A stretch of 35,036 nt of DNA, from the NCBI GenBank assembly GCA_021296535.1, contig JAGWAG010000047.1, forward strand, positions 1 to 35,036, in the 5' to 3' direction. How positions within the stretch are numbered: the stretch's first letter is position 1; each line of letters starts with the position of its first letter. Made by a program: the position numbers and the translations under genes. Below the pieces are notes generated by a model. It made no database searches. It worked only from the letters and a program-made list of their open reading frames with translations, and had not been told where the DNA came from. This document shows positions 7,674 to 25,760 of the stretch, piece by piece. This DNA comes from Acidobacteriota bacterium (lineage in GTDB: Bacteria; Acidobacteriota; Thermoanaerobaculia; Multivoradales; Multivoraceae).

Positions 7674-10316
7674 ATGCCGAGCGGCAATCTCGAGGCCTAC
7701 CGCCGCAAGCGATCGAGCGAGGCGACGCCCGAACCCTTCGGTCCCGCGACGGGGACGGGCGCCGGCCGCTTCGTCGTCCAGAAGCACGCGGCACGCCGCG
7801 TCCACTTCGACCTGCGCCTGGAGCTCGAAGGCACGCTGAAGTCCTGGGCCGTGCCCCGCGGCCCCAGCCTCGACCCCGAGGTCAAGCGCCTGGCGGTGGC
7901 CACCGAGGACCACCCGCTGGAGTACGCCGATTTCGAGGGATCGATCCCCGCCGGCAACTACGGCGCCGGGGCGATGATCGTCTGGGACAGCGGCCGCTGG
8001 AGGCCGCTCGAGGACCCGGTCGCCGGGTTGGAGAACGGCAAGCTCCTCTTCGAACTCCACGGCTACAAGCTGCGCGGCGTCTGGACTCTGTTTCGCACCG
8101 GCGGCCGGCGCCAGACGGACGACGGCAATCAGTGGCTGCTGATGAAGAAGCCCGACGCGGCCGCCCGGCCGGAGAGCGAGGGCGGCGAGGACGACCTGCC
8201 GCCGGAGTCCGTGCTCTCGGGCCTGACCGTCGAGGAACTCCGCGACGGCTGCGAGCGGATCGAGGAGGTGCGGGCCGAGGTCGCCGGATCCGGCGCTCGA
8301 CAGCGCAACGTCGACCCGCGCTCGCTGCAACTGATGCTCGCGGTCACCGGTGATCGGCCGTTCTCCCGGCCGGGCTGGATCTACGAACTGAAGTACGACG
8401 GCTACCGCCTGGTGGCGGCCAGGGAAGGCGGCAACGTCTTCCTCCGCTATCGGAACGGCGGCGACGTGACCGCGCTCTACCCCGAACTGGTCCGCGCCCT
8501 GCGCGCCCTGCCGGTGCAATCGGTGGTCCTGGACGGCGAGGTCACCGTCCTCGACGGCGGCGGCAGGCCGAGCTTCGCCAGGCTCCAGACACGGGCCCTG
8601 CTCAGCCGACCGGTCGACATCGAACAGGCCGCCGTGCGCCGGCCCGCGACCCTGTTCGCCTTCGATCTCGTCGCCTTCGAGGGATCGGACCTGCGGTCGC
8701 TCGCCCTGCTGGAGCGAAAGGCCCTGCTGGCGAAGGTTCTGCCCCCGGCCGGGCCGCTCCGCTACTCGGACCACATCGAGGAGCAGGGCGAGGCGTTCTT
8801 CGAGCAGGTGGCGGCGATGGGCCTCGAGGGCGCGATGGCCAAGGACGGCGACTCCCGCTACGTCGGCCGCCGGTCGTCGTCGTGGGTGAAGCTGCGCACC
8901 GAACGGACCGCCGACTTCGCCATCGTCGGCATGTCGCCGCCCAAGGGCAGCCGGGTCGGCCTCGGCTCGCTCCACCTGGCGGTCTGGGATGCGGAGGCCG
9001 CCGACACGGCGGCAGCCGGCGGCGGCAAAGCCGGCGGCCTCGTCTATGCCGGACGCGTCGGCACCGGGTTCAGCGACGCGGTCCTCGCGGAGCTGGCGGA
9101 CCGACTGTCGGCCAACCGGCGCGACGGTCCGCCGTGCCGGGCCCCCGTCGGCGCGGACGGCGGCGTCGGCGCGGGCAACGACGCCGATGGCGACGATCCC
9201 GTCGACAAGCCGCTGGGCGACAGCGACCTGATGGGGGGCCGCGTCGAAGACCAGACCTGGATCGAGCCGAACCCGGAGCTGATCTGCGAGGTCCGCTACA
9301 AGGAATGGACCCCCCACGGCATGCTCCGGCACCCTGTCTTCCTCCACTTGCGCGACGACAAGCCGATCGAGGACTGCGTACGAGCGGCCGAGCCGCGAAC
9401 TCCCGGGAGCGACCCGCCGCCGCCGCCCGAACGGCGCGTCGACGTGACGAACAGGTCCAAGGTCTTCTGGCCGGCCGAGGGCTACACAAAGGGCGACCTG
9501 ATCGACTTCTACGCCGAGATCGCCGACGCGATGCAGCCCTACCTGACCGACCGGCCGCTGGTCATGACCCGCTATCCCGACGGCATCGCTGGCAAGTCCT
9601 TCTTCCAGAAGAACGCCCCCGACTTCGCGCCGGACTGGCTGCAGACCGTGAAGCTGGTAAGCCCCCGCACCGGCAAGGAAGTCGAGTACTTCGTCTGCCG
9701 GGACCGCGAAAGCCTGGTCTACATCGCCAACCTGGGTGCGATCGTCCTCCACGTGTGGTCGAGCCGGGTGCACCAGCTCGGCCAGCCCGACTGGTGCATC
9801 CTCGATCTCGACCCGAAGGACGCGCCCTTCGAGGACGTGATCGAGATCGCCCTGGCCATCCGCCGCCTGTGCCGGAAGATCAAGCTGCCCAGCTTCGTCA
9901 AGACCAGCGGCTCGAGCGGTCTGCACGTTCTCCTGCCGCTCGGCGGCGCCTGCACCTTCGAGCAGTCCCGCGGCCTCGGCCAACTCATCGCCCAGATCAT
10001 CTGCCGCCAGTTGCCCGACATCGCCACGATCACCCGCAACCCCGAACGCCGCGGCGGCAAGGTCTACATCGACTTCGTCCAGAACGGACGCGGCAGGCTG
10101 CTCGTCGCCCCCTTCAGCGTCAGACCGCTTCCGGCGGCGCCGGTCTCGACGCCGCTGCGCTGGTCCGAGGTCAAACCCGGCCTCGACCTGCGCGACCACA
10201 ACATCCGGTCGCTGCCCGAACGCCTCAAGAAGCTCAAGACCGACCCGCTGCGCGGCGTGCTCACCGAGCAGCCCGACCTGCTGGCCGCGCTAAGGCGGTT
10301 GAGCGAACTCGTGTAG
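7674..10316 (+). CDS. ligD: Multifunctional DNA ligase D (PE-LIG-POL)
   Basis: ATP-dependent end-joining ligase with three domains in the order phosphoesterase, ligase, polymerase, about 880 aa. The 3'-phosphoesterase domain is near the N-terminus (RRVHFDLRLELEGTLKSWAVP, then PAGNYGAG). The ligase core has the nucleotidyl lysine in YELKYDGYR (Lys about 240) and the later ligase motif SSSWVKLRTERTADF. After a variable Gly/Ala/Asp-rich linker, the primase-polymerase domain starts at VTNRSKVFWPAEGYTKGDL and has the catalytic acidic motif LDLDPKD (Asp about 711). ATG 7674 is preferred because GGGAG lies 10 nt upstream; ATG 7665 is too close to it. It works with the divergent ku gene. Confidence 0.96.
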   Translation: MPSGNLEAYRRKRSSEATPEPFGPATGTGAGRFVVQKHAARRVHFDLRLELEGTLKSWAVPRGPSLDPEVKRLAVATEDHPLEYADFEGSIPAGNYGAGAMIVWDSGRWRPLEDPVAGLENGKLLFELHGYKLRGVWTLFRTGGRRQTDDGNQWLLMKKPDAAARPESEGGEDDLPPESVLSGLTVEELRDGCERIEEVRAEVAGSGARQRNVDPRSLQLMLAVTGDRPFSRPGWIYELKYDGYRLVAAREGGNVFLRYRNGGDVTALYPELVRALRALPVQSVVLDGEVTVLDGGGRPSFARLQTRALLSRPVDIEQAAVRRPATLFAFDLVAFEGSDLRSLALLERKALLAKVLPPAGPLRYSDHIEEQGEAFFEQVAAMGLEGAMAKDGDSRYVGRRSSSWVKLRTERTADFAIVGMSPPKGSRVGLGSLHLAVWDAEAADTAAAGGGKAGGLVYAGRVGTGFSDAVLAELADRLSANRRDGPPCRAPVGADGGVGAGNDADGDDPVDKPLGDSDLMGGRVEDQTWIEPNPELICEVRYKEWTPHGMLRHPVFLHLRDDKPIEDCVRAAEPRTPGSDPPPPPERRVDVTNRSKVFWPAEGYTKGDLIDFYAEIADAMQPYLTDRPLVMTRYPDGIAGKSFFQKNAPDFAPDWLQTVKLVSPRTGKEVEYFVCRDRESLVYIANLGAIVLHVWSSRVHQLGQPDWCILDLDPKDAPFEDVIEIALAIRRLCRKIKLPSFVKTSGSSGLHVLLPLGGACTFEQSRGLGQLIAQIICRQLPDIATITRNPERRGGKVYIDFVQNGRGRLLVAPFSVRPLPAAPVSTPLRWSEVKPGLDLRDHNIRSLPERLKKLKTDPLRGVLTEQPDLLAALRRLSELV

Positions 10317-13941: not shown

Positions 13942-15129
13942 TCCGGTCGGCTCCCGTTTCGGCAGGAGCAGCGAAGCAAACGCCGACACCAGGCCGACGA
14001 CGGCGCCGGCCTGCAGCACCGAAGTCAGTTCGAAACGATCGGCGAGCCCTCCGATTCCCCAGGTGGCGAGCCCGCCCGTCGCGAACAGGAAGCCGAGTGC
14101 CGTTCCCGAAGCCAGCCCCCGGCGCCAGGGCAGCACTTCCTGGGCCATGACGATCAGGATCGAGTGCGACGCCCCCAGCAACGCTCCGCACGGCAGTACG
14201 AGGGCGAAGATCAGGCCTTCGGACTCCGGCACCAGCGCCAGCAGCAGCGAACCCAGCAACGTCGTCAGAAAGACGACCGGGCGTCGACCCCAACGATCGG
14301 CCCAGGCCCCCGCGAGAACCGCCGTGACCGCGCCCCCGAGCAGAAACAGCCCGCTGGCAAGCCCCTGAGTCGAGGATCTGTATCCCTGCTGGCTCAACAG
14401 GAGAGGCAGGAACGCCATCGTTCCAAACATGGCCCAGGACCGGCTGGCGAACACCAGGGCCAGAAGAGCGATGACGCCGCCGCGCATCGGTCGCCGGCGA
14501 CTGGCGGGCGCTTCCGCGCCACCGGCCGGCCTGTCATCGGCGGACCGCAACGGGCCAGGCGCCGCGTTGACCCGCCGCGGCCCCATCGCGAAGGCCATGA
14601 ACAGCGGCACCGGCGCCACGACCAGCACGAGCCAGTAGATCCCCGTAAGCCCCGCCCAGTCGAGCGCCAGCCCCGCCAGATACGGGCCCGTGGTGAGCCC
14701 GAGCTGACCGCAGAAGAAGAAGATCGCGGTGAAGGTGGCCGAGCGGGCGACGTTCACCGTACTGGAGTGCATCACGCCCAGAGGATGGAACGCGCCGGAG
14801 GCGACCGCCGCGAGGGCGAACGGAATGAGGAACAGTCCGAAACTCCCCGTCGCGGCAGCGGCAGCAACCGCCAGCGCCATGCACCCCAAGTTGAAGGCAA
14901 CGCTGAATGGACCCAGGAAGCGGCTGCCGACCCTGTCGACCAACCAGCCGAAGGCCGGCTGCGTCGTCCCCGCCAACACCTGGAACAGTCCGACCGCAAG
15001 CCCGATCTGCGCGGCGCTGAGGCCGAGCGGCTCCCTCAGGAAGGCCAGCAGCACCGGCCCCATGCTGTTGAAGATGTCGATGCCGAGGTGACCAACCGTA
15101 ACGGCGGCGAAGATGCGTCGGCCGTTCAT
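13942..15129 (-). CDS. MFS transporter, fosmidomycin-resistance (Fsr)-like, no stop before receptor
   Basis: Inner-membrane exporter of the major facilitator superfamily, 396 codons, about 12 hydrophobic segments. Fsr-like features are HLGIDIFNSMGPVLLAFL at the N-terminus, the loop GWLVDRVGSR after TM2, and the AFHPLGVMHSS segment; the second half starts after a polar central loop (about residues 190-225) and has DRWGRRP. The start is ATG 15129. It overlaps by one base the stop of a 19-codon ORF that repeats the same first 12 residues. There is no stop codon at the end: the frame runs through PKREPTG directly into the TonB receptor. Transported substrate unknown; efflux of a drug or metabolite is likely from family membership. 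Confidence 0.85.
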
Positions 15130-15188
15130 CAGAGATCGAGCCCGAAGCGAGCTACTGTCACCGCGGCGAAGATGCGTCGGCCGTTCAT
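15129..15188 (-). CDS. Short ORF 2, 19 aa, close copy of MFS N-terminus
   Basis: ATG 15188 opens MNGRRIFAAVTVARFGLDL, whose first 12 residues equal those of the MFS protein. It stops at a TGA whose last base is the A of the MFS ATG (TGATG), an arrangement that allows ribosomes to reinitiate on the MFS gene. It is either a coupling leader or the remnant of a tandem duplication. Confidence 0.45.
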   Translation of the reverse strand: MNGRRIFAAVTVARFGLDL

Positions 15189-15247
15189 GCGATCTCGCCA
15201 ACGACCCGGCGCGACAGCACCGCGGCCACAATACGCCGAGCACTCAT
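15185..15247 (-). CDS. Short ORF 1, 20 aa, diverged copy of MFS N-terminus
   Basis: ATG 15247 opens MSARRIVAAVLSRRVVGEIA and stops at a TGA that overlaps the next ATG (ATGA). It starts 10 bp after the ggt stop. It resembles the MFS N-terminus (MNGRRIFAAVTV). It could act as a translational-coupling leader peptide or be a relic; nothing shows that the peptide itself has a role. Confidence 0.4.
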   Translation of the reverse strand: MSARRIVAAVLSRRVVGEIA

Positions 15248-15257
15248 GCGCGGCCCG

Positions 15258-17039
15258 CTACCCGCTCGCGGGCGCCTCTCCCCGCGGCGCGCTCACGCCG
15301 CCTCCCCGCCGCGGGTCGGCAACGCCGACGAGCGCCTCGTCCTTTACCCGGATCGCCGACACGTCGCCACTCAAGCCGCGCTCGAAGAGCTCGTGACCAC
15401 GCGCGGCCAGACCTTCGAGTGCCTCGGAAGAAAGGCCACCCTGCTCGTAGAAGATCCGATCGGGCCACGCCTGATGATGTACGCGCGGGCTTTCCACCGC
15501 CTGCTTCAGGGTCATGCCGTGGTCGATCACGTTCGAGATCACGTGGTAGACGGTCGTGATGATCGTCGGGCCGCCCGGCGTGCCGACGACCATCATCAGG
15601 TCGCCCTCCGGGTCGAGGACGATGCTCGGGGTCATCGACGACAGCATCCGCTTGCCGGGGACGATCGCGTTGTTCTCGCCCTCCACCAGCCCGAACTGGT
15701 TCGGCTGACCCGGTGAAGCGGCGAAGTCGTCCATCTCGTTGTTCAGCAGGAACCCGGCGCCGGTCACCGTGACCGCGTTGCCGTAGCCGCTGTTGATCGT
15801 GGTCGTGATCGACGCCGCATTGCCCCAGCGGTCGACGACGGAGTAGTGGGTCGTCTCGGTACTTTCGGCCGGCGGCGCGACCTCGACCGGTGGCAGCGGC
15901 CGCGCCCGCGCGGGATCGATCTGCGCCCGCAGCCCGTCAGCGTAGTCCTGGGACTCGAACTGCGCCCGCGGAACGTCGACGAAGTCCGGGTCGCCGAGCA
16001 GCGTGTTCCGATCGCGGAACGCGAGCCGCATCGTCTCGGCTTCCAGGTGGATCAGTTCGGCGCTGCCGAACGGAGGCAGGGGATCCCAACCTTCCAGCAC
16101 GTTCAGGATCAGGCCCATGGTCAGGCCGCCCGAAGAGACCGGCGGCATCGAGTAGATCGTGTGGCCGCGGTACTCCACCTCGACCGGCTCTCGCCACGCG
16201 GGTGCGTAGCTCTCCAGGTCCTCGTGCGAGATCAGGCCTCCGCCCCGCTCCATCTCGGCGACGATCAGATCGGAGACCGGGCCGCGGTAGAAGCCGTCCG
16301 GGCCCTGCTCGGCGATCGCCGTCAGGGTGGCCGCCAGGTCGGGCTGCTCAAGAAGCGTCCCCGGCGCCGGCGCCTCGCCATCGACGAGAAACTGCTCCGC
16401 GCTGGCCGGGAAGCGGTTCAGCCGGTCAACCGCCGACCCGAGGCTCCGCGAGCGCACTTCATCGACCTCGTGGCCCCGAGCGAGCTCGATCCCCGGCGCC
16501 ACCAGGTCGGCCCAGGGCAGGGACCCGACCTGCTGGTGCATCTCCCACAAACCGGCCACCGAGCCCGGAACGCCCGCCGCCAGGTGGCCGATCACGGCGT
16601 TCTCCGTTACCTTGCCCTCGTCGTCGAGGAACATGTCGCGGGTGGTCGCGCCCGGCGCCTTTTCGCGGTAGTCGAGCGCCCGCACCTCGCCGTCGTTCGA
16701 GCGGTAGACGAGGAAGCCGCCGCCGCCGATGTTGCCCGCCGCGGGAAGAACCGCCGCCAGAGCGAAACCGACCGCCACCGCGGCGTCGACCGCGTTGCCA
16801 CCCTGCTCGAGGACGCGCGCGCCGGCCGCCGACGCCAGGCCATGGCCGCTCGAGACCATGCCATGCCGGCCTTCCGCCGCCGGTGCCTTGCCTTCCAGGC
16901 TCCAGGCCGCCGAGGCCTCGGTATCGCCCGCCGATTCCGCCCTCGTGCAGGCAACTCCGAGCAGCACGGCAGGAGCGACGCAGCCGGCTATCAGGCGCTG
17001 AACGAGCGGACGCGAGGCAATGGTCGCGAACCGGCTCAT
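15258..17039 (-). CDS. ggt: Gamma-glutamyltranspeptidase, probable lipoprotein
   Basis: Periplasmic N-terminal nucleophile hydrolase that cleaves or transfers the gamma-glutamyl group of glutathione and similar peptides, 593 aa. Large-subunit features are HGMVSSGHGLAS and GGNAVDAAVAVGFALAAVLP, followed by NIGGGGFLVYR. The autocleavage and nucleophile site is ESTETTHYSVVDRWGNAAS, where Thr396 would start the small subunit. Substrate-binding motifs follow, such as GFLLNNEMDDF and SSMTPSIVLD. A lipobox-like LLGVAC near residue 30 suggests a membrane-anchored lipoprotein. It is divergent from the GCS2 ligase gene (82 bp gap) and is followed by the short ORFs and the MFS gene. Confidence 0.95.
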   Translation of the reverse strand: MSRFATIASRPLVQRLIAGCVAPAVLLGVACTRAESAGDTEASAAWSLEGKAPAAEGRHGMVSSGHGLASAAGARVLEQGGNAVDAAVAVGFALAAVLPAAGNIGGGGFLVYRSNDGEVRALDYREKAPGATTRDMFLDDEGKVTENAVIGHLAAGVPGSVAGLWEMHQQVGSLPWADLVAPGIELARGHEVDEVRSRSLGSAVDRLNRFPASAEQFLVDGEAPAPGTLLEQPDLAATLTAIAEQGPDGFYRGPVSDLIVAEMERGGGLISHEDLESYAPAWREPVEVEYRGHTIYSMPPVSSGGLTMGLILNVLEGWDPLPPFGSAELIHLEAETMRLAFRDRNTLLGDPDFVDVPRAQFESQDYADGLRAQIDPARARPLPPVEVAPPAESTETTHYSVVDRWGNAASITTTINSGYGNAVTVTGAGFLLNNEMDDFAASPGQPNQFGLVEGENNAIVPGKRMLSSMTPSIVLDPEGDLMMVVGTPGGPTIITTVYHVISNVIDHGMTLKQAVESPRVHHQAWPDRIFYEQGGLSSEALEGLAARGHELFERGLSGDVSAIRVKDEALVGVADPRRGGGVSAPRGEAPASG

Positions 17040-19626: not shown

Positions 19627-20703
19627 ATGGCCGAACCTGCACTGCGTACTGCTCAGCACACCATAGAGACCCGGCACCCTCGTCCCGTCACCGCGAACAG
19701 CGGAGGCGAACTGAGAGAGGCGCTCGACGACTTCCTCGAACTGAAGGAGATGGCCGCCGCCCAGGAGGCGGATCGTGCCCTGCACGATCAACCGCAGATG
19801 GTGAGTCGCTACTACGATGTGGTCACCAAGTTCTACGAGTACGGCTGGGGGCAGTCGTTCCACTTCTGCCCCCGCCGTTCCGGGGAGGGCCTCCAGGCGG
19901 CACTGCACCGTCACGAGACCGGCGTGGGCGAACTCCTGGCCCTCGGGCCGGGAACGAAGGTCGCCGACATCGGATGCGGTGTCGCCGGGCCACTGGTCAC
20001 GATCGCCGGGGCCACCGGCGCCAGCATCACCGGCATCAACTTCAACGCGTACCAGATCGCGAGGGGCGAGCGATCGGTGCGCCGCGCCGGTCTTCAGGAA
20101 ACGTGCGACTTCCTGCTCGCCAGCTTCATGGACGTGCCTCTCGAAGACGGCCACTTCGACGCCGCGTACTCGTTCGAAGCGACTTGCCACGCGCCCGACA
20201 GGGCCCTCTGCTTCAAGGAGCTCCATCGGCTGCTCAGGCCGGGAGGCGAGCTCGCCCTGATCGACTGGTGCCTGACCGACAACTTCGACGAGGAGGATCC
20301 GGGCCATCGCGACATTCGGGACCGGGTCGAGTTCGGAAACGCGACGCCCAACCTGCCCACGACCTCTCGCCAGCTCGACCTGGTCCGAAGTGCCGGTTTC
20401 GAGGTTCTCTCGAGCTGCGACCAGGCGCTCGAAAGCGACCCGGGCACTCCCTGGTACCGGTCGCTCCAGGGGCGTGACTTCTCACTCGCATCACTCGGAC
20501 GGATTCCCGTCGGCCGATGGTTTACCGCCAGGGCGACCGGCCTGCTGGAGCTGCTCCGCATCGCGCCTGCCGGCACGAGTGAGGCCGCCCGCATCCTCAA
20601 CGTGGCGGCCGACGCCCTCGTCGAGGCCGGCGTGGCGGGCATCTTCACGCCCTCCTTCCTGATTCACGCGCGCAAGCCGGGCGGCGAATCGATCTCTTCG
20701 TAG
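19627..20703 (+). CDS. Sterol C-24 methyltransferase (SMT/ERG6) homologue
   Basis: SAM-dependent methyltransferase, 358 aa, matching the sterol side-chain methylase family throughout. Region I is YYDVVTKFYEYGWGQSFHF (residues 62-80). SAM motif I is VADIGCGVAGP (112-122), followed by GINFNAYQI. The ERG6 signature EATCHAPD lies at 184-191, and IDWCLTDNFDEEDPGH corresponds to the third ERG6 region. The C-terminal third (GFEVLSSCDQAL, PWYRSL) fits the SMT C-terminal domain. SMTs methylate C-24 of sterol side chains; bacterial members are known but uncommon. An AAGGAG site (19616-19621) precedes the ATG. It is first in a set with the Rieske and propeller genes. It could act on another isoprenoid, but the sterol signatures are strong. 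Confidence 0.85.
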   Translation: MAEPALRTAQHTIETRHPRPVTANSGGELREALDDFLELKEMAAAQEADRALHDQPQMVSRYYDVVTKFYEYGWGQSFHFCPRRSGEGLQAALHRHETGVGELLALGPGTKVADIGCGVAGPLVTIAGATGASITGINFNAYQIARGERSVRRAGLQETCDFLLASFMDVPLEDGHFDAAYSFEATCHAPDRALCFKELHRLLRPGGELALIDWCLTDNFDEEDPGHRDIRDRVEFGNATPNLPTTSRQLDLVRSAGFEVLSSCDQALESDPGTPWYRSLQGRDFSLASLGRIPVGRWFTARATGLLELLRIAPAGTSEAARILNVAADALVEAGVAGIFTPSFLIHARKPGGESISS

Positions 20704-20719
20704 CGGTTGGAGTTTCCTC

Positions 20720-21865
20720 ATGGGCTTCAGAACGCGCCGTTCAAACCACCGGGAGCCCCAAACCTCCGACGATCTCCGTCTCGCCGGCTATCCCCACCCC
20801 TTCCCGGACGGCTGGTACCGGCTGATGACCTCGAAGTCGCTCCGGCGCGGTCAGGTGCGCTACCTCGAGTGCCTCGGGAGGTCGCTGGTTGTGTGGCGCA
20901 GCGAAGATTCGGACGACGTACACGCGATGCAGGCGTTCTGCCCCCACCTCGGCGCGAACCTCAGGCACGGCCGCGTCCGCGAGGACCGCATCGAGTGCCC
21001 GTTTCACAACTGGCAATTCACAGGGGACGGACGGCCGGCCTGCGTGCCCTACAGCGACACGGCGCCGACCCGCGTCGCCGCCGAGAGCTTCCCGGTACAG
21101 GACGTGCATGGGCAGATCTTCATGTATCACCGCAGCGACGGCGCCAGACAGCAGGCCGGCGATGAGCTGCCGTACCCCGTCCCCCGGCTCCCGGAAGTCG
21201 ACGACGGGAGCTTCGTCTACCGCGGGCACTACGACGCCGGCCGCGTGCAGATGCACATCGTCGAGTTCATCGAGAACGCCGCCGACTTTGCCCACTTCAT
21301 CTACATCCATGAACAGATGAACGTCCCGTGGACCGGAATCCCGGTCCCCGGCATCAAGATCGAACACACGCCCGGCGTGGAGTTCCCCAAGGACCGGCCC
21401 TGGACGATGCACTTCCTCGACGAGGCCGTGCTCAAGTTCCGCGACCGTCCTCTCGAGCGGACACGGACACGGGCCCGGGCCACGTTCACCGGTCCGGCCA
21501 GCATCGTGAACTTCAGGTTCTTCATTCCCGACGCGGGTGAGATCGACCTGTGCCAGACGCACCTGCCGGTCGGGCCGCTTGAGCAGCAGGTCGACTTCCA
21601 CTGGTTCGCCGATCGAAAGCTCCCGCGCTTTCTGGTCTGGTACGTCGTCGGCAGTTGGATCGCCCAATGGCGTCACGACATCGAGATCTGGGAGAACAAG
21701 ACCTATCTCGACCACCCGACGCTCTGCCGCGACGACGGGCCCGTCGTTCGCATGCGGCGCTGGTACCGGCAATTTTTCCCGGACGCGCTGCCGGCGGCAG
21801 GGTCGCCGCGGGAAGCGCCGGGCGAACCAGCCGAACGCAGGCTGGTCGGAGTGGCCTCCAACTGA
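20720..21865 (+). CDS. Rieske oxygenase, DAF-36/Neverland/SdmA-like (sterol-type)
   Basis: Non-heme iron oxygenase, 381 aa. The Rieske cluster ligands are Cys74-x-His76 (FCPHLGANL) and Cys93-x2-His96 (CPFHNWQF). The mononuclear iron site has the Nx2Dx2Hx4H pattern in ENAADFAHFIYIH (Asn186, Asp189, His192, His197), with the third ligand probably the Asp in HDIEIWENKTY. The N-terminus (PFPDGWYRLM, then RYLECLGRSLVVWR) and C-terminus (WENKTYLDHP, MRRWYRQFF) resemble cholesterol 7-desaturases and bacterial sterol C-4 demethylases. The reaction is therefore probably desaturation or oxidation of a sterol ring. GGAG precedes the ATG; 16 bp separate it from the methyltransferase. No ferredoxin reductase is encoded nearby. 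Confidence 0.82.
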   Translation: MGFRTRRSNHREPQTSDDLRLAGYPHPFPDGWYRLMTSKSLRRGQVRYLECLGRSLVVWRSEDSDDVHAMQAFCPHLGANLRHGRVREDRIECPFHNWQFTGDGRPACVPYSDTAPTRVAAESFPVQDVHGQIFMYHRSDGARQQAGDELPYPVPRLPEVDDGSFVYRGHYDAGRVQMHIVEFIENAADFAHFIYIHEQMNVPWTGIPVPGIKIEHTPGVEFPKDRPWTMHFLDEAVLKFRDRPLERTRTRARATFTGPASIVNFRFFIPDAGEIDLCQTHLPVGPLEQQVDFHWFADRKLPRFLVWYVVGSWIAQWRHDIEIWENKTYLDHPTLCRDDGPVVRMRRWYRQFFPDALPAAGSPREAPGEPAERRLVGVASN

Positions 21866-21867
21866 AC

Positions 21868-22986
21868 GTGCCGCGGACACTCACATGGACGTGCGTCCTG
21901 CTGGCCGGACTGACCGCGCCGGCGCCGGCGGCCGACCCGGAGGCGAGCCCGGTGCTCCGCATCGAACGCTGGATCGAGGGCGGCGGCCGGCTCGACTGGT
22001 CCCGCCAGGGCGAGTGGCTGGCCTACGACAAGGCCGGAGAGGACGGCCGCTACGACATCTACATCACGTCGACGGACCTCCTGGCCGAGCGCTGCCTGAC
22101 CTGCGAGATGTACGCGTTGCGGAAGGACAACGCGATGAACCCGGTCTGGCACCCCGCCGGCGAACGCCTCATCGTCCAGGTGCAGAGCCGCCCCAAGCGG
22201 CTCAAGTTCATTGCCGATCCGCTGCAGCTCCTGACTCCCGACCGGGCGGTGCACAGCGAGCTCTACGACATCGACCGCAGGGGCAAGCACTTCACGCTCC
22301 TGACCCGGTTCGGCGACAATGGCACCGCGGTGCTCGATCCCCACTTCGCCTTCGACGGCGAGCGGCTGTTGTGGAGCGAGCGCGTCAAGGCGCGCAAGGG
22401 CCGCTACGGCGCCTGGCAACTGCGCAGCGCCCGATTCCAGGTCGGCCGCACCGGCATCCCCAAACTACGCCGGATCCAGTCGTACCCGGTGCCCACCGAC
22501 GCGCTGATCGTGCCCCAGGGCTACACCCCCGATGACCGCGGCGCCCTGGTCGCGGCGAACTTCGAGCCCGGGCAGTCGCCCGACACCCTCGACCTTTACC
22601 GAATCCGCTTCGACGGCGGCGAGCCGGAACGGCTGACCCACACGCGCGGCGGAGCCGAGGAGTACGTCCGGCTGTCGCCGACAGGCCGCCACCTCGCCTT
22701 CACGTCGAACGCCGAGATCCGCGGCACGGAACCCGGGCAGTCGGTGCCGCCGACAGCCCGACGCGAGCTGTGGTTGATGGACGCGGATGGCTCGAACAAA
22801 CGCCGGCTCACCTTCTTCAACGACCCGCCCTCCGACCACAGTCTGGGCCACACCTACGTCGGCGACCTGGCCTGGAGCCCGCGCGGCGACCAGATCGCCG
22901 TACACGTCATGTGGGGCAGCGAGGATGGCGGACGACCGCGAGAAGCGGTGTACCGTATCGATCTTGTTTCGTCCTTCCGGCGCTAG
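21868..22986 (+). CDS. Secreted TolB/WD40-like beta-propeller protein
   Basis: Exported protein of 372 aa with a signal peptide (PRTLTWTCVLLAGLTAPAPA). Repeated propeller-type strands follow, such as LDWSRQGEWLAYDK, NPVWHPAGERLIVQV, RLSPTGRHLAFTSN and LAWSPRGDQIAVHVMW. It contains LMDADGSNKRRLT, the typical TolB/PD40 blade. GTG 21868 starts 2 nt after the Rieske stop, so the genes are likely co-transcribed and coupled. It has no peptidase or hydrolase domain. A periplasmic binding or scaffold role for the product or substrate of the upstream enzymes is only inference. Confidence 0.75.
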   Translation: MPRTLTWTCVLLAGLTAPAPAADPEASPVLRIERWIEGGGRLDWSRQGEWLAYDKAGEDGRYDIYITSTDLLAERCLTCEMYALRKDNAMNPVWHPAGERLIVQVQSRPKRLKFIADPLQLLTPDRAVHSELYDIDRRGKHFTLLTRFGDNGTAVLDPHFAFDGERLLWSERVKARKGRYGAWQLRSARFQVGRTGIPKLRRIQSYPVPTDALIVPQGYTPDDRGALVAANFEPGQSPDTLDLYRIRFDGGEPERLTHTRGGAEEYVRLSPTGRHLAFTSNAEIRGTEPGQSVPPTARRELWLMDADGSNKRRLTFFNDPPSDHSLGHTYVGDLAWSPRGDQIAVHVMWGSEDGGRPREAVYRIDLVSSFRR

Positions 22987-23068: not shown

Positions 23069-23121
23069 CCGCTCACGCCTTGGACTCGCAGACGCAACAC
23101 CACCCCACTCGAGGAATCCGT

Positions 23122-24471
23122 ATGAGAAGACGTCCCGCCTCGTTCCTGCTCGCCGCCCTGCTGCCGGCACTCCTCGCCGCGCTACCCGCCGCGGCCCAGG
23201 ACGACCCCCACGTATTCCGCGGCGCCCGGCTGCTGCCGATCGCCGGTCCGCCGATCGACGACGGCGTCCTGGTCGTCCAGGGCGGCAAGATCACAGGCGT
23301 CGGCGGCCCCGACACGAACACGCCGCGCGGGGCGGTCGAGCACGACGTGTCCGGCAAGGTGCTGATGCCCGGCCTCGTCGACACCCACTCCCACGTCGGC
23401 TCTGTATCCGGGGGCGACCGGTCCGCGCCGCTCCACCCGGACGTGAGGAACCTCGACTCGATCGACGTGGCAGCCGACAGCATCTGGCGCGCCCGATCCG
23501 GCGGCATCACGACGCTGAACATCATGTCGGGCTCCGGGCACCTCATGTCCGGACAGACCGCCTACGTCAAGCTGCGCGACGGCGCCCGCACGATCGAGGA
23601 CTGGCTCTACTGCGACGATCCGATCAACGGCATCTGCGGCGGCATGAAGATGGCGAACGGCACGAACTCGATCGGCTCGCCGCCCTTCCCCGGCACGCGC
23701 TCCAAGTCGGCGGCCCTGGTGCGAAACCTCTACCACGAGGCGGTCGAGTACCGGGACAGGATGGCCGAGGCGGAAGCGAGCGAAGACGGGGACGACGGGG
23801 GCGAGCCGGCCAAGCGAGACCTGCGCATGGAGGCGCTGGCCCAGGTGCTGGCTGGCGACCGGATCGTCCAGCACCACACCCACCGCCACAACGACATCGC
23901 CACCGTGCTGCGGCTCAAGGAGGAGTTCGGCTTCCGGGTCGTCGTCCAGCACGGGACGGAATCCTGGAAGGTCGCCGAGGAACTTGCCGCCGCCGACGTG
24001 CCGGTGTCGATCACCTGGATCGACGCGCCGGGCGGCAAGGAAGAGACGATCGACTGGAACATGGAGATGGGCGCGATCCTCGAACAGGCCGGCGTCGACG
24101 TCAGTTTCAACACGGACGACTCGGTGACCGATTCGCGGCTCCTCTTCCGAGCCGCAGCGATCGCGGTCCGCTACGGCATGTCGCGCGACAAGGCGATCGA
24201 GGGCCTGACTCTCGCGCCGGCGCGGGCACTTGGGCTCGATGACCGGATCGGCTCGCTCGAAGCCGGCAAGGACGCGGACTTCGTCGTCCTCTCCGGCGAT
24301 CCCTTGAGCGTGTACTCGAAGGTCGAGCAGACCTGGGTCGAGGGGACGATGATCTACGACCGCTCGAACCCCGACCACCGCAAGTTCGCGGTCGGGGGCT
24401 ACAAGGTCTACCGGACCACGGCCCACGAAGACCACATGACCCGGCAGTTGCTCGAGGGAGAGACACGATGA
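23122..24471 (+). CDS. Secreted amidohydrolase, complete metal site
   Basis: Metal-dependent hydrolase of the amidohydrolase superfamily (imidazolonepropionase-like), 449 aa, exported by a signal peptide (MRRRPASFLLAALLPALLAA, then LPAAAQ). Metal ligands are present: His89-x-His91 in PGLVDTHSHVG, the His cluster in QHHTHRHND (251-256), His277 in VVQHGTES, and Asp332/333 in NTDDSV. The substrate is unknown; family members cleave C-N bonds of cyclic amides, dipeptides and similar compounds. GAGGAA precedes the ATG. The last 4 bases overlap the next gene (ATGA), a degenerate paralogue, so the two products are made together. Confidence 0.9.
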   Translation: MRRRPASFLLAALLPALLAALPAAAQDDPHVFRGARLLPIAGPPIDDGVLVVQGGKITGVGGPDTNTPRGAVEHDVSGKVLMPGLVDTHSHVGSVSGGDRSAPLHPDVRNLDSIDVAADSIWRARSGGITTLNIMSGSGHLMSGQTAYVKLRDGARTIEDWLYCDDPINGICGGMKMANGTNSIGSPPFPGTRSKSAALVRNLYHEAVEYRDRMAEAEASEDGDDGGEPAKRDLRMEALAQVLAGDRIVQHHTHRHNDIATVLRLKEEFGFRVVVQHGTESWKVAEELAAADVPVSITWIDAPGGKEETIDWNMEMGAILEQAGVDVSFNTDDSVTDSRLLFRAAAIAVRYGMSRDKAIEGLTLAPARALGLDDRIGSLEAGKDADFVVLSGDPLSVYSKVEQTWVEGTMIYDRSNPDHRKFAVGGYKVYRTTAHEDHMTRQLLEGETR

Positions 24472-25760
24472 AGCGACTGGGAATCACGTTCTTCTCCTTC
24501 GCCCTGGCGGCGGTAACCGCGGTCCCGACCGCGGCCCAGGTTGCGGTTCGCGCGGGCACCCTGCACACGGTTTCCGGGCCACCGATCGAAAACGCGGTCG
24601 TGATCGCCGGCGCGGACGGCAAGATCGAGTGGGTCGGGCCGGCGGCCGAAGCAGACATCCCCGACGGCGCCCGTGTCCTCGAAGCCGCCGTCGTCACCCC
24701 CGGCCTCGTCGACCCGCACTCCGTCGTCGGGCTCTCGGGCGCGTTGAACAGCAACGTCGGTCCCGTCCGCGACCAGGATCAGCTCGAACGCTCCTCGCCG
24801 ATCCAGCCCGACCTGCGGGCGATCGACGCCTACGACGCGAACGAGACCCTGGTCGAGTGGGTCCGGTCGTACGGGGTCACGACGATGCACACCGGTCACG
24901 GGCCCGGAGCTCTCGTCAGCGGCCAGACGATGATCGCGAAGACCCGCGGCCGGAACGTCGACCAGGCCGTCGTCGTCCCCGCGCGGATGCTCGCTTCCAC
25001 GCTCGGCAACGCGGTGTCGTCCAACTTCCAGTCGCCGGGGACATCGGCCAAGGGAATCGCGATGCTCCGCAATGCACTGTTCGGGGCCCAGGCGTACCTG
25101 GATCAGGTGCAGCAGGCGGCGGAAGCCGGTACGGAGGATGGCGACGAAGCCGAGGGTGACGAGGCCGACGGGGAAGAGGGCGACGCCAAGCCTGCGCCCA
25201 AGCCCCCGGCGCGCGACCTCTCCAAGGAGGCCCTGGGCCAGGTGCTCGAGGGCGAGCTGTGCCTGCTGATCACGGCGAACACCGTGCCCGAAATCGCCTC
25301 CGCGCTCAGGCTGCAGCAGGAGTTCGGCTTCGACCTGGTGCTCGACGGCGCCGCCGAGTCCTACCTGCTGCTCGACGAGATCCGCGAGGCCGGCGTGCCC
25401 GTCCTGCTCCACCCGACGATGAGCCGGGTCCGCAACGGTTCCTACGAGACCGCCGCGTCGCTCGCCGACGCCGGCATTCCGTTCGCGATCCAGACCGGAT
25501 TTGAGGGCTACGTCCCGAAGACCCGCGTCCTGCTCTGGGAAGCGGCCATCGCCGCCGCCAACGGCCTCGGCATGGAACGCGCCCTCGAAGCGGTCACCCT
25601 GAGCCCGGCACGCATCCTCGGCATCGACGACCGCGTCGGCTCGATCGAGGTCGGCAAGGACGCCGACCTCGCCCTCTTCGACGGCGACCCGTTCGAGTAC
25701 ACCAGCCACATCTGCGGCGTGATCATCGAGTCGGAGGTGATGTCGACGGAGTGCCGGTAG
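24468..25760 (+). CDS. Secreted amidohydrolase-fold paralogue, metal ligands lost
   Basis: 430 aa, with signal peptide (KRLGITFFSFALAAVTAV, then PTAAQ). It aligns along its whole length with the preceding enzyme (for example ALRLQQEFGF against VLRLKEEFGF, and LSPARILGIDDRVGSIEVGK against LAPARALGLDDRIGSLEAGK). The metal positions have changed. The HSH motif is HSV (His84 kept, second His to Val86), the HHTHRH cluster is ITANT, QHG is DGA, and NTDD is QTGF. An acidic low-complexity insert (about residues 220-245) is present. Hydrolysis is therefore unlikely. I infer a non-catalytic partner or regulator of the first enzyme, perhaps in a heteromer. Confidence 0.85.
   Translation: MKRLGITFFSFALAAVTAVPTAAQVAVRAGTLHTVSGPPIENAVVIAGADGKIEWVGPAAEADIPDGARVLEAAVVTPGLVDPHSVVGLSGALNSNVGPVRDQDQLERSSPIQPDLRAIDAYDANETLVEWVRSYGVTTMHTGHGPGALVSGQTMIAKTRGRNVDQAVVVPARMLASTLGNAVSSNFQSPGTSAKGIAMLRNALFGAQAYLDQVQQAAEAGTEDGDEAEGDEADGEEGDAKPAPKPPARDLSKEALGQVLEGELCLLITANTVPEIASALRLQQEFGFDLVLDGAAESYLLLDEIREAGVPVLLHPTMSRVRNGSYETAASLADAGIPFAIQTGFEGYVPKTRVLLWEAAIAAANGLGMERALEAVTLSPARILGIDDRVGSIEVGKDADLALFDGDPFEYTSHICGVIIESEVMSTECR

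Follow-up and report, generated by a model that had tools for sequence, protein, structure and literature searches.

A candidate two-gene sterol-tailoring module in Acidobacteriota of the sponge-symbiont type

The stretch of DNA analysed here (the window; 35,036 nucleotides, GenBank contig JAGWAG010000047.1) is contig C127 of the draft genome of an Acidobacteriota bacterium, 3.76 Mb in size and 86% complete. It carries two adjoining genes on the forward strand, one for an ERG6-type sterol C-24 methyltransferase (SMT1; 358 aa, ATG at 19627 to stop at 20703), recognised from Pfam, motifs and trees, and one for a KshA_C-type Rieske non-haem iron oxygenase (Rieske1; 381 aa, 20720..21865). We propose, with a probability of about 0.6 and on the basis of sequence comparisons, that SMT1 and Rieske1 constitute a two-gene sterol-tailoring module of sponge-symbiont-type Acidobacteriota, fed mostly by sterol from the host or from neighbouring cells. 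The closest relatives by sterol methyltransferase (SMT; 83–85% identity) are metagenome-assembled genomes (MAGs) titled Acidobacteria, Holophagales or Thermoanaerobaculia, and isolate prefixes such as RHO, COS and CAR fit the demosponge hosts sampled in PMC8163846, which suggests that the genus is sponge-associated; the titles of the records name no host.

The methyltransferase and the Rieske oxygenase

The SMT1 protein scores 69.4 bits against Pfam Sterol_MT_C (PF08498; cut-off 21.7), and in the genome search this domain (20506..20679, forward strand, 73 bits) is the sole match in the genome, whilst none of 14 control genomes gave a match. An earlier note on this DNA had recognised ERG6 blocks in the first gene, and all three motifs that it quoted, FYEYGWGQSFHF, EATCHAPD and DWCLTDNFDEEDPGH, are indeed present. 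Four SMT regions were scored, i.e. the aromatic region I (YEYGWGxSFHF), region II for S-adenosylmethionine, region III (YxxEATCHAP) and region IV (EWxxTDxxDxxxxxH); SMT1 possesses all four, with small deviations in region II (GCGVAGP) and region IV (IDWCLTD). Region I (FYEYGWGQSFHF, residues 69–80, at 19831..19866 on the forward strand) corresponds to FYEYGWGSSFHF in yeast and, like regions III and IV and the C-terminal FTPSFLIHARKP, has counterparts in yeast ERG6 and plant SMTs and is missing from the small-molecule methyltransferases RebM and MitM. The identity of SMT1 to ERG6 and plant SMTs is 33–39%, the three eukaryotic references being validated by Pfam only, and reaches 57% to a gammaproteobacterial SMT whose neighbours are squalene synthase, squalene epoxidase (SE), oxidosqualene cyclase (OSC), CYP51, ERG24 and SdmA. 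In the careful tree, with RebM and MitM as outgroup and no tocopherol methyltransferase among the rows, the outgroup splits from all SMTs with a support of 100/100, and SMT1 shares a clade of 18 rows with the gammaproteobacterial SMT of the OSC cluster and with the SMTs encoded beside Rieske1 in Chloroflexota (90/90; 100 in the other tree). Branching among the SMT lineages and the eukaryotic SMTs is weakly resolved, and the attachment of the SMT of module C (described below) differs between the two trees. These comparisons support the placement of SMT1 with eukaryotic SMTs and with bacterial SMTs of OSC clusters, in line with the SMT assignment of the earlier note, and an identity as a small-molecule methyltransferase is ruled out by both trees together with the SMT motifs.

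Rieske1 matches the Rieske family with 75.6 bits and KshA_C with 84.7 bits, the catalytic KshA_C domain lying at 21173..21778 on the forward strand (PF19298 genome search, 85 bits), and its top match in the PDB is KshA (4qdf, E 3.6e-39). It keeps all eight metal or bridging residues, i.e. the C/H/C/H ligands of the cluster and D178, H181, H186 and D304 (KshA numbering), and its 2-His-1-Asp site and bridging Asp are intact. The Rieske1-type sequences form a clade of 19 rows (support 99), distinct from the Rieske2 and SdmA-like types and possibly sister to KshA (support 80). The evidence supports membership of Rieske1 in the KshA_C group of steroid oxygenases and not among the aromatic-ring oxygenases. 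To that extent the earlier note, which had compared the protein with cholesterol 7-desaturases and bacterial sterol demethylases, was right about its steroid-type character; the likeness to sterol demethylases did not stand. An identity as SdmA is rejected on a score of 51.5 of 600 bits with NCBIfam NF052579, where the SdmA-like gene of locus L111 reaches 400 bits, and on its separate clade. Nor is Rieske1 a KshA proper, because only two of the eight proposed steroid contacts are kept: V176, Q204, Y232, M238, N240, N257, F301 and W308 of KshA are A, E, F, I, N, Q, W and W in Rieske1, and the ring contacts are reportedly conserved across known KshAs (PMC4064121). Rieske1 contains CPH..CPFH and ENAADFAHFIYIH, which conform to the motifs C-x-H-x16-17-C-x2-H and E/D-x3-D-x2-H-x4-H (PMC7609953); these are not diagnostic for DAF-36/Neverland, because KshA has them too. 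As a published tree places KshA in one cluster with the cholesterol 7-desaturase Neverland (PMC4064121), C-7 desaturation is as plausible as hydroxylation, and the reaction of Rieske1 is most likely either C-7 desaturation or 9alpha-hydroxylation, with other reactions less probable.

Within the genus, orthologues share 72–85% identity for SMT1 (dN/dS ~0.20–0.26) and 66–91% for Rieske1 (dN/dS ~0.13–0.24), a pattern that points to purifying selection on both genes and goes beyond chance. The Rieske genes of the congener G069 and of two Chloroflexota have an in-frame TAG that might suggest pseudogenes; in G069 and G224 the TAG is a normal stop that leaves a shorter tail.

Linkage, spread and limits of the unit

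Among the 21 genomes of the genus compared (the window's own included), SMT1 is present in 18, Rieske1 in 18 and both in 17, and in all 17 the two genes are adjacent on one strand; G081 and G082 have neither. A genome of another genus (G063, locus L113) has the two genes in the opposite order, the Rieske gene preceding the SMT gene, both on the same strand and at the end of a contig. The pair is also adjacent in the Chloroflexota loci L010, L208, L210, L211, L212, L215 and L221, which belong to six genomes. In a sample of 294 Chloroflexota genomes, all of the class to which the Dehalococcoidia locus L010 belongs, Sterol_MT_C was found in 31 and Rieske1 in 10, every one of the 10 within those 31 (hypergeometric P 4e-11, uncorrected for phylogeny). 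Judged from gene order and occurrence, SMT1 and Rieske1 are thus a real conserved pair that crosses phyla, from Acidobacteriota to Chloroflexota. The expectation that the genes of the cassette stay together in relatives is borne out for SMT and Rieske and fails for the propeller gene that follows them.

The unit spans 19627..21865 on the forward strand. The gap between SMT1 and Rieske1 is 16 nt, and the propeller frame has a possible GTG start at 21868, 2 nt past the TGA of Rieske1; the spacing on which the earlier note had relied agrees with these coordinates. The propeller, which that note counted as the third member of the cassette, matches PD40 weakly (24 bits). In a class-wide survey of 149 genomes it occurs in 42, from 15 genera, also where SMT and Rieske are absent, as in G081 and G082. 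VanZ and the propeller are contiguous in other genera, and the order GCS2-VanZ-propeller, with no SMT/Rieske pair, is seen in G081, G082, G062 and G084. A nucleotide comparison with locus L148 of the closest relative, G082 (~95% identity over most of the flanks), revealed that the two-gene unit is absent there as a block: between VanZ and the propeller lies a 24-nt scar, ATGGCCGACAGGACCTCCAACTGA (L148:about 8190-8216), which fuses the first codons of SMT in frame to the last codons of Rieske (M-A-D-R-T-S-N-stop). Membership of the propeller is ruled out by its distribution and by this empty site, and it is instead a native neighbour. The scar may be an assembly error; the likeliest history, as far as these comparisons reach, is that the pair was gained beside VanZ within the genus, and that SMT and Rieske were then lost jointly in G082.

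SMT genes were met in further settings besides the SMT-Rieske1 pair, here termed module B. In module A, the SMT lies beside SdmA-ERG24-CYP51-SE-OSC (L219, L220, L222 etc.), and in module C another SMT (SMT2) lies near the gene of a P450-GPP34 fusion protein, often together with Rieske2. Module C loci occur in Acidobacteriota and Chloroflexota (L073:10125-13213 and 14630-15727; L228, L232, L233, L235, L240, L244); SMT2 is ~35% identical to SMT1, GPP34 is GOLPH3-like, and the accompanying Rieske is KshA-like. The window's own genome carries, on the short contig C138 (G000:C138; L084:6587-9671), a P450-GPP34-type gene (41% identical to that of L073) and a Rieske2 (73%) near an RND permease, with no SMT2 on that contig. 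A Gemmatimonadota locus (L012:10001-10547) holds a short, degenerate-looking SMT remnant with up to 74% identity to SMT1. Near the SMT-Rieske pair of L010 there is a second Rieske1-type gene beside a phytanoyl-CoA dioxygenase-like (PhyH) gene (L010:14137-16196), and a PhyH-like gene recurs near four further Chloroflexota SMT loci (L210, L211, L212 and L218).

The source of the sterol and alternative explanations

A family search found no OSC or squalene-hopene cyclase (SHC) in the window or in its 86% complete genome, so that the earlier note's caution over the missing cyclase was well placed. Across the genus, OSC is found in 3 of the 21 genomes (G067, G072 and G076; VSDCTAE motif, beside SE), two of these clusters also containing CYP51 and SdmA-like genes, and is lacking from the other 18; the remaining cyclases of the congeners are of the hopene type (DCDDTA) or fragments thereof. 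Hopene cyclases only are present in 14 of the 17 other SMT1-bearing congeners, each at least 93% complete (for instance G070, assembled into 3 contigs, and G077, into 7). With OSC in just 3 of the 21 genomes, most congeners therefore probably use foreign sterol, and most of the genus, by its gene content, seems not to make sterols itself. Of the Chloroflexota with module B, G149, G171, G224, G239 and G374 have OSC and G312 does not. The module is thus at home in sterol-making cells yet kept in a mostly non-sterol-making genus, and this is explained most simply if the genus uses sterol from the host or the community. In two congeners the hopene cyclase genes (L247 in G064, L248 in G068) are broken after about codon 188, with the middle parts missing or damaged.

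In the mechanism that we propose, SMT1 would methylate, with S-adenosylmethionine as donor, a delta-24 sterol at C-24 of the side chain (or else a 24-methylene sterol), and Rieske1, with electrons from a reductase encoded elsewhere, would oxidise the rings of this sterol, by a C-7 desaturation as in Neverland or a 9alpha-hydroxylation as in KshA. In the genus, the sponge host or other symbionts nearby would supply the substrate, usually to cells that have no OSC of their own, and the products would presumably benefit the cell or its host; in Chloroflexota the module would mostly work alongside a complete de novo sterol cluster.

Several observations weigh against this proposal. The two genes are not strictly interdependent, because G070 retains the SMT without the Rieske, and G069 has the Rieske elsewhere in its genome without the SMT. 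Six of the eight KshA steroid-contact residues are replaced in Rieske1. No reductase partner for Rieske1 was identified, a genome-wide search for KshB not having been made, and AlphaFold models of both proteins (11–12 rows) are poor, with a mean pLDDT of 39 and 51 and unreadable pockets. The window's own genome also lacks hopene cyclases, which almost every congener possesses; because of this, and because the genome is 86% complete, its lack of OSC is weak alone, and it is the pattern across the genus that carries the argument.

The last point leaves room for the explanation that the pair serves de novo sterol synthesis as in Chloroflexota, the cyclase being merely missing from the MAG. The incompleteness of the MAG, the OSC/SE clusters of three congeners and the presence of OSC in most module-bearing Chloroflexota favour it, but the 14 nearly complete congeners with hopene cyclases only make it unlikely. 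A module for sterol uptake and breakdown, in which the KshA-like Rieske would open the rings whilst the SMT would draw off a share of the sterol, we consider distinctly improbable. KshA is the nearest solved family and initiates steroid ring opening in bacteria (PMC4064121); however, its contact residues are not kept in Rieske1, and the anabolic nature of the partner SMT, together with the de novo sterol clusters in Chloroflexota, points to tailoring. Steroid-degradation genes were not seen among the neighbours of Rieske1 that were scanned, and a genome-wide search for them was not made. Because the KshA contacts are changed, a non-sterol substrate is conceivable, either a different polycyclic triterpenoid or a terpenoid, e.g. 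a hopanoid or a sponge meroterpenoid, and hopene cyclases are widespread within the genus; we nonetheless rate this lowest of all, as the four SMT motif regions and Sterol_MT_C are intact and the nearest relatives outside the genus lie in OSC clusters or OSC-bearing genomes. Hopanoids are not known to have the delta-24 double bond used by SMTs, which speaks against such a substrate as well.

Sterol tailoring with mostly foreign substrate is accordingly the reading that we prefer. A wider version of it, which we put forward tentatively and regard as somewhat doubtful, is that a horizontally spread sterol-finishing module enables symbionts without a sterol pathway to take up sterols of the host or of neighbours, alkylate them at C-24 and oxidise the ring, making some of the unusual sterols, 24-alkylated as well as ring-oxidised, that are attributed to demosponges. 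A 9alpha-hydroxy 24-ethyl delta-7 sterol is among the compounds reported from Spongia (PMC9028682) and exemplifies such sterols.

Relation to known systems

Bacterial SMTs in sponge symbionts are already known. Brown et al. (2023, PMC10070321) demonstrated that SMTs of uncultured bacteria, sponge symbionts included, methylate desmosterol in vitro, up to the 24-isopropyl chain, so that the earlier note's view of sterol alkylation as a eukaryotic marker is dated. Like SMT1, those enzymes are of the ERG6 type and belong to uncultured bacteria that are often associated with sponges, their genes lying in some cases in sterol clusters; in contrast, the SMT of the window is paired with a Rieske oxygenase in a genus mostly without OSC, and a KshA-type Rieske partner is not named in the main text of that paper, where the word 'Rieske' occurs 0 times. 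Kelly et al. (2022, PMC9531527) described ERG24-CYP51-LSS clusters in Ircinia symbionts, often with a flanking SMT. These clusters are of the module A type and come from sponge-symbiont MAGs, whereas the module of the window combines an SMT of another lineage with a KshA-like Rieske and is not part of a cluster of that kind. As for the oxygenase, Rieske1 resembles KshA in its domain family and in all metal ligands, and differs from it in its steroid contacts and in having no degradation genes seen beside it. It belongs to the same broad Rieske group as DAF-36/Neverland by the published tree (PMC4064121) and motif (PMC7609953), and is bacterial, whereas DAF-36/Neverland is an animal enzyme. The 4beta-methylsterol monooxygenase SdmA is likewise a bacterial Rieske oxygenase acting on sterols, but the SdmA-like gene from an OSC cluster has VanA_C where Rieske1 has KshA_C.

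No description of an SMT-KshA-like pair was found in the literature searched, which covered few subscription papers or supplements. What is novel is the phylum-crossing module of SMT and KshA-like Rieske, usually uncoupled from sterol synthesis in the genus. The sequence observation of the earlier note is hence confirmed and its interpretation partly supported. If our proposal is true, bacterial sterol alkylation need not track the bacterial sterol pathway, and a survey of OSC only would therefore miss these bacteria. A contested biomarker for the first animals is based on 24-alkylated demosponge sterols, and two small, co-expressible genes make the origin of unusual sponge sterols directly testable.

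Around the module, a simple scan found no promoters or terminators. Downstream of the propeller, in the window (23080-25760) as in the congener loci compared, lie two adjoining amidohydrolase genes with ~32% mutual identity.

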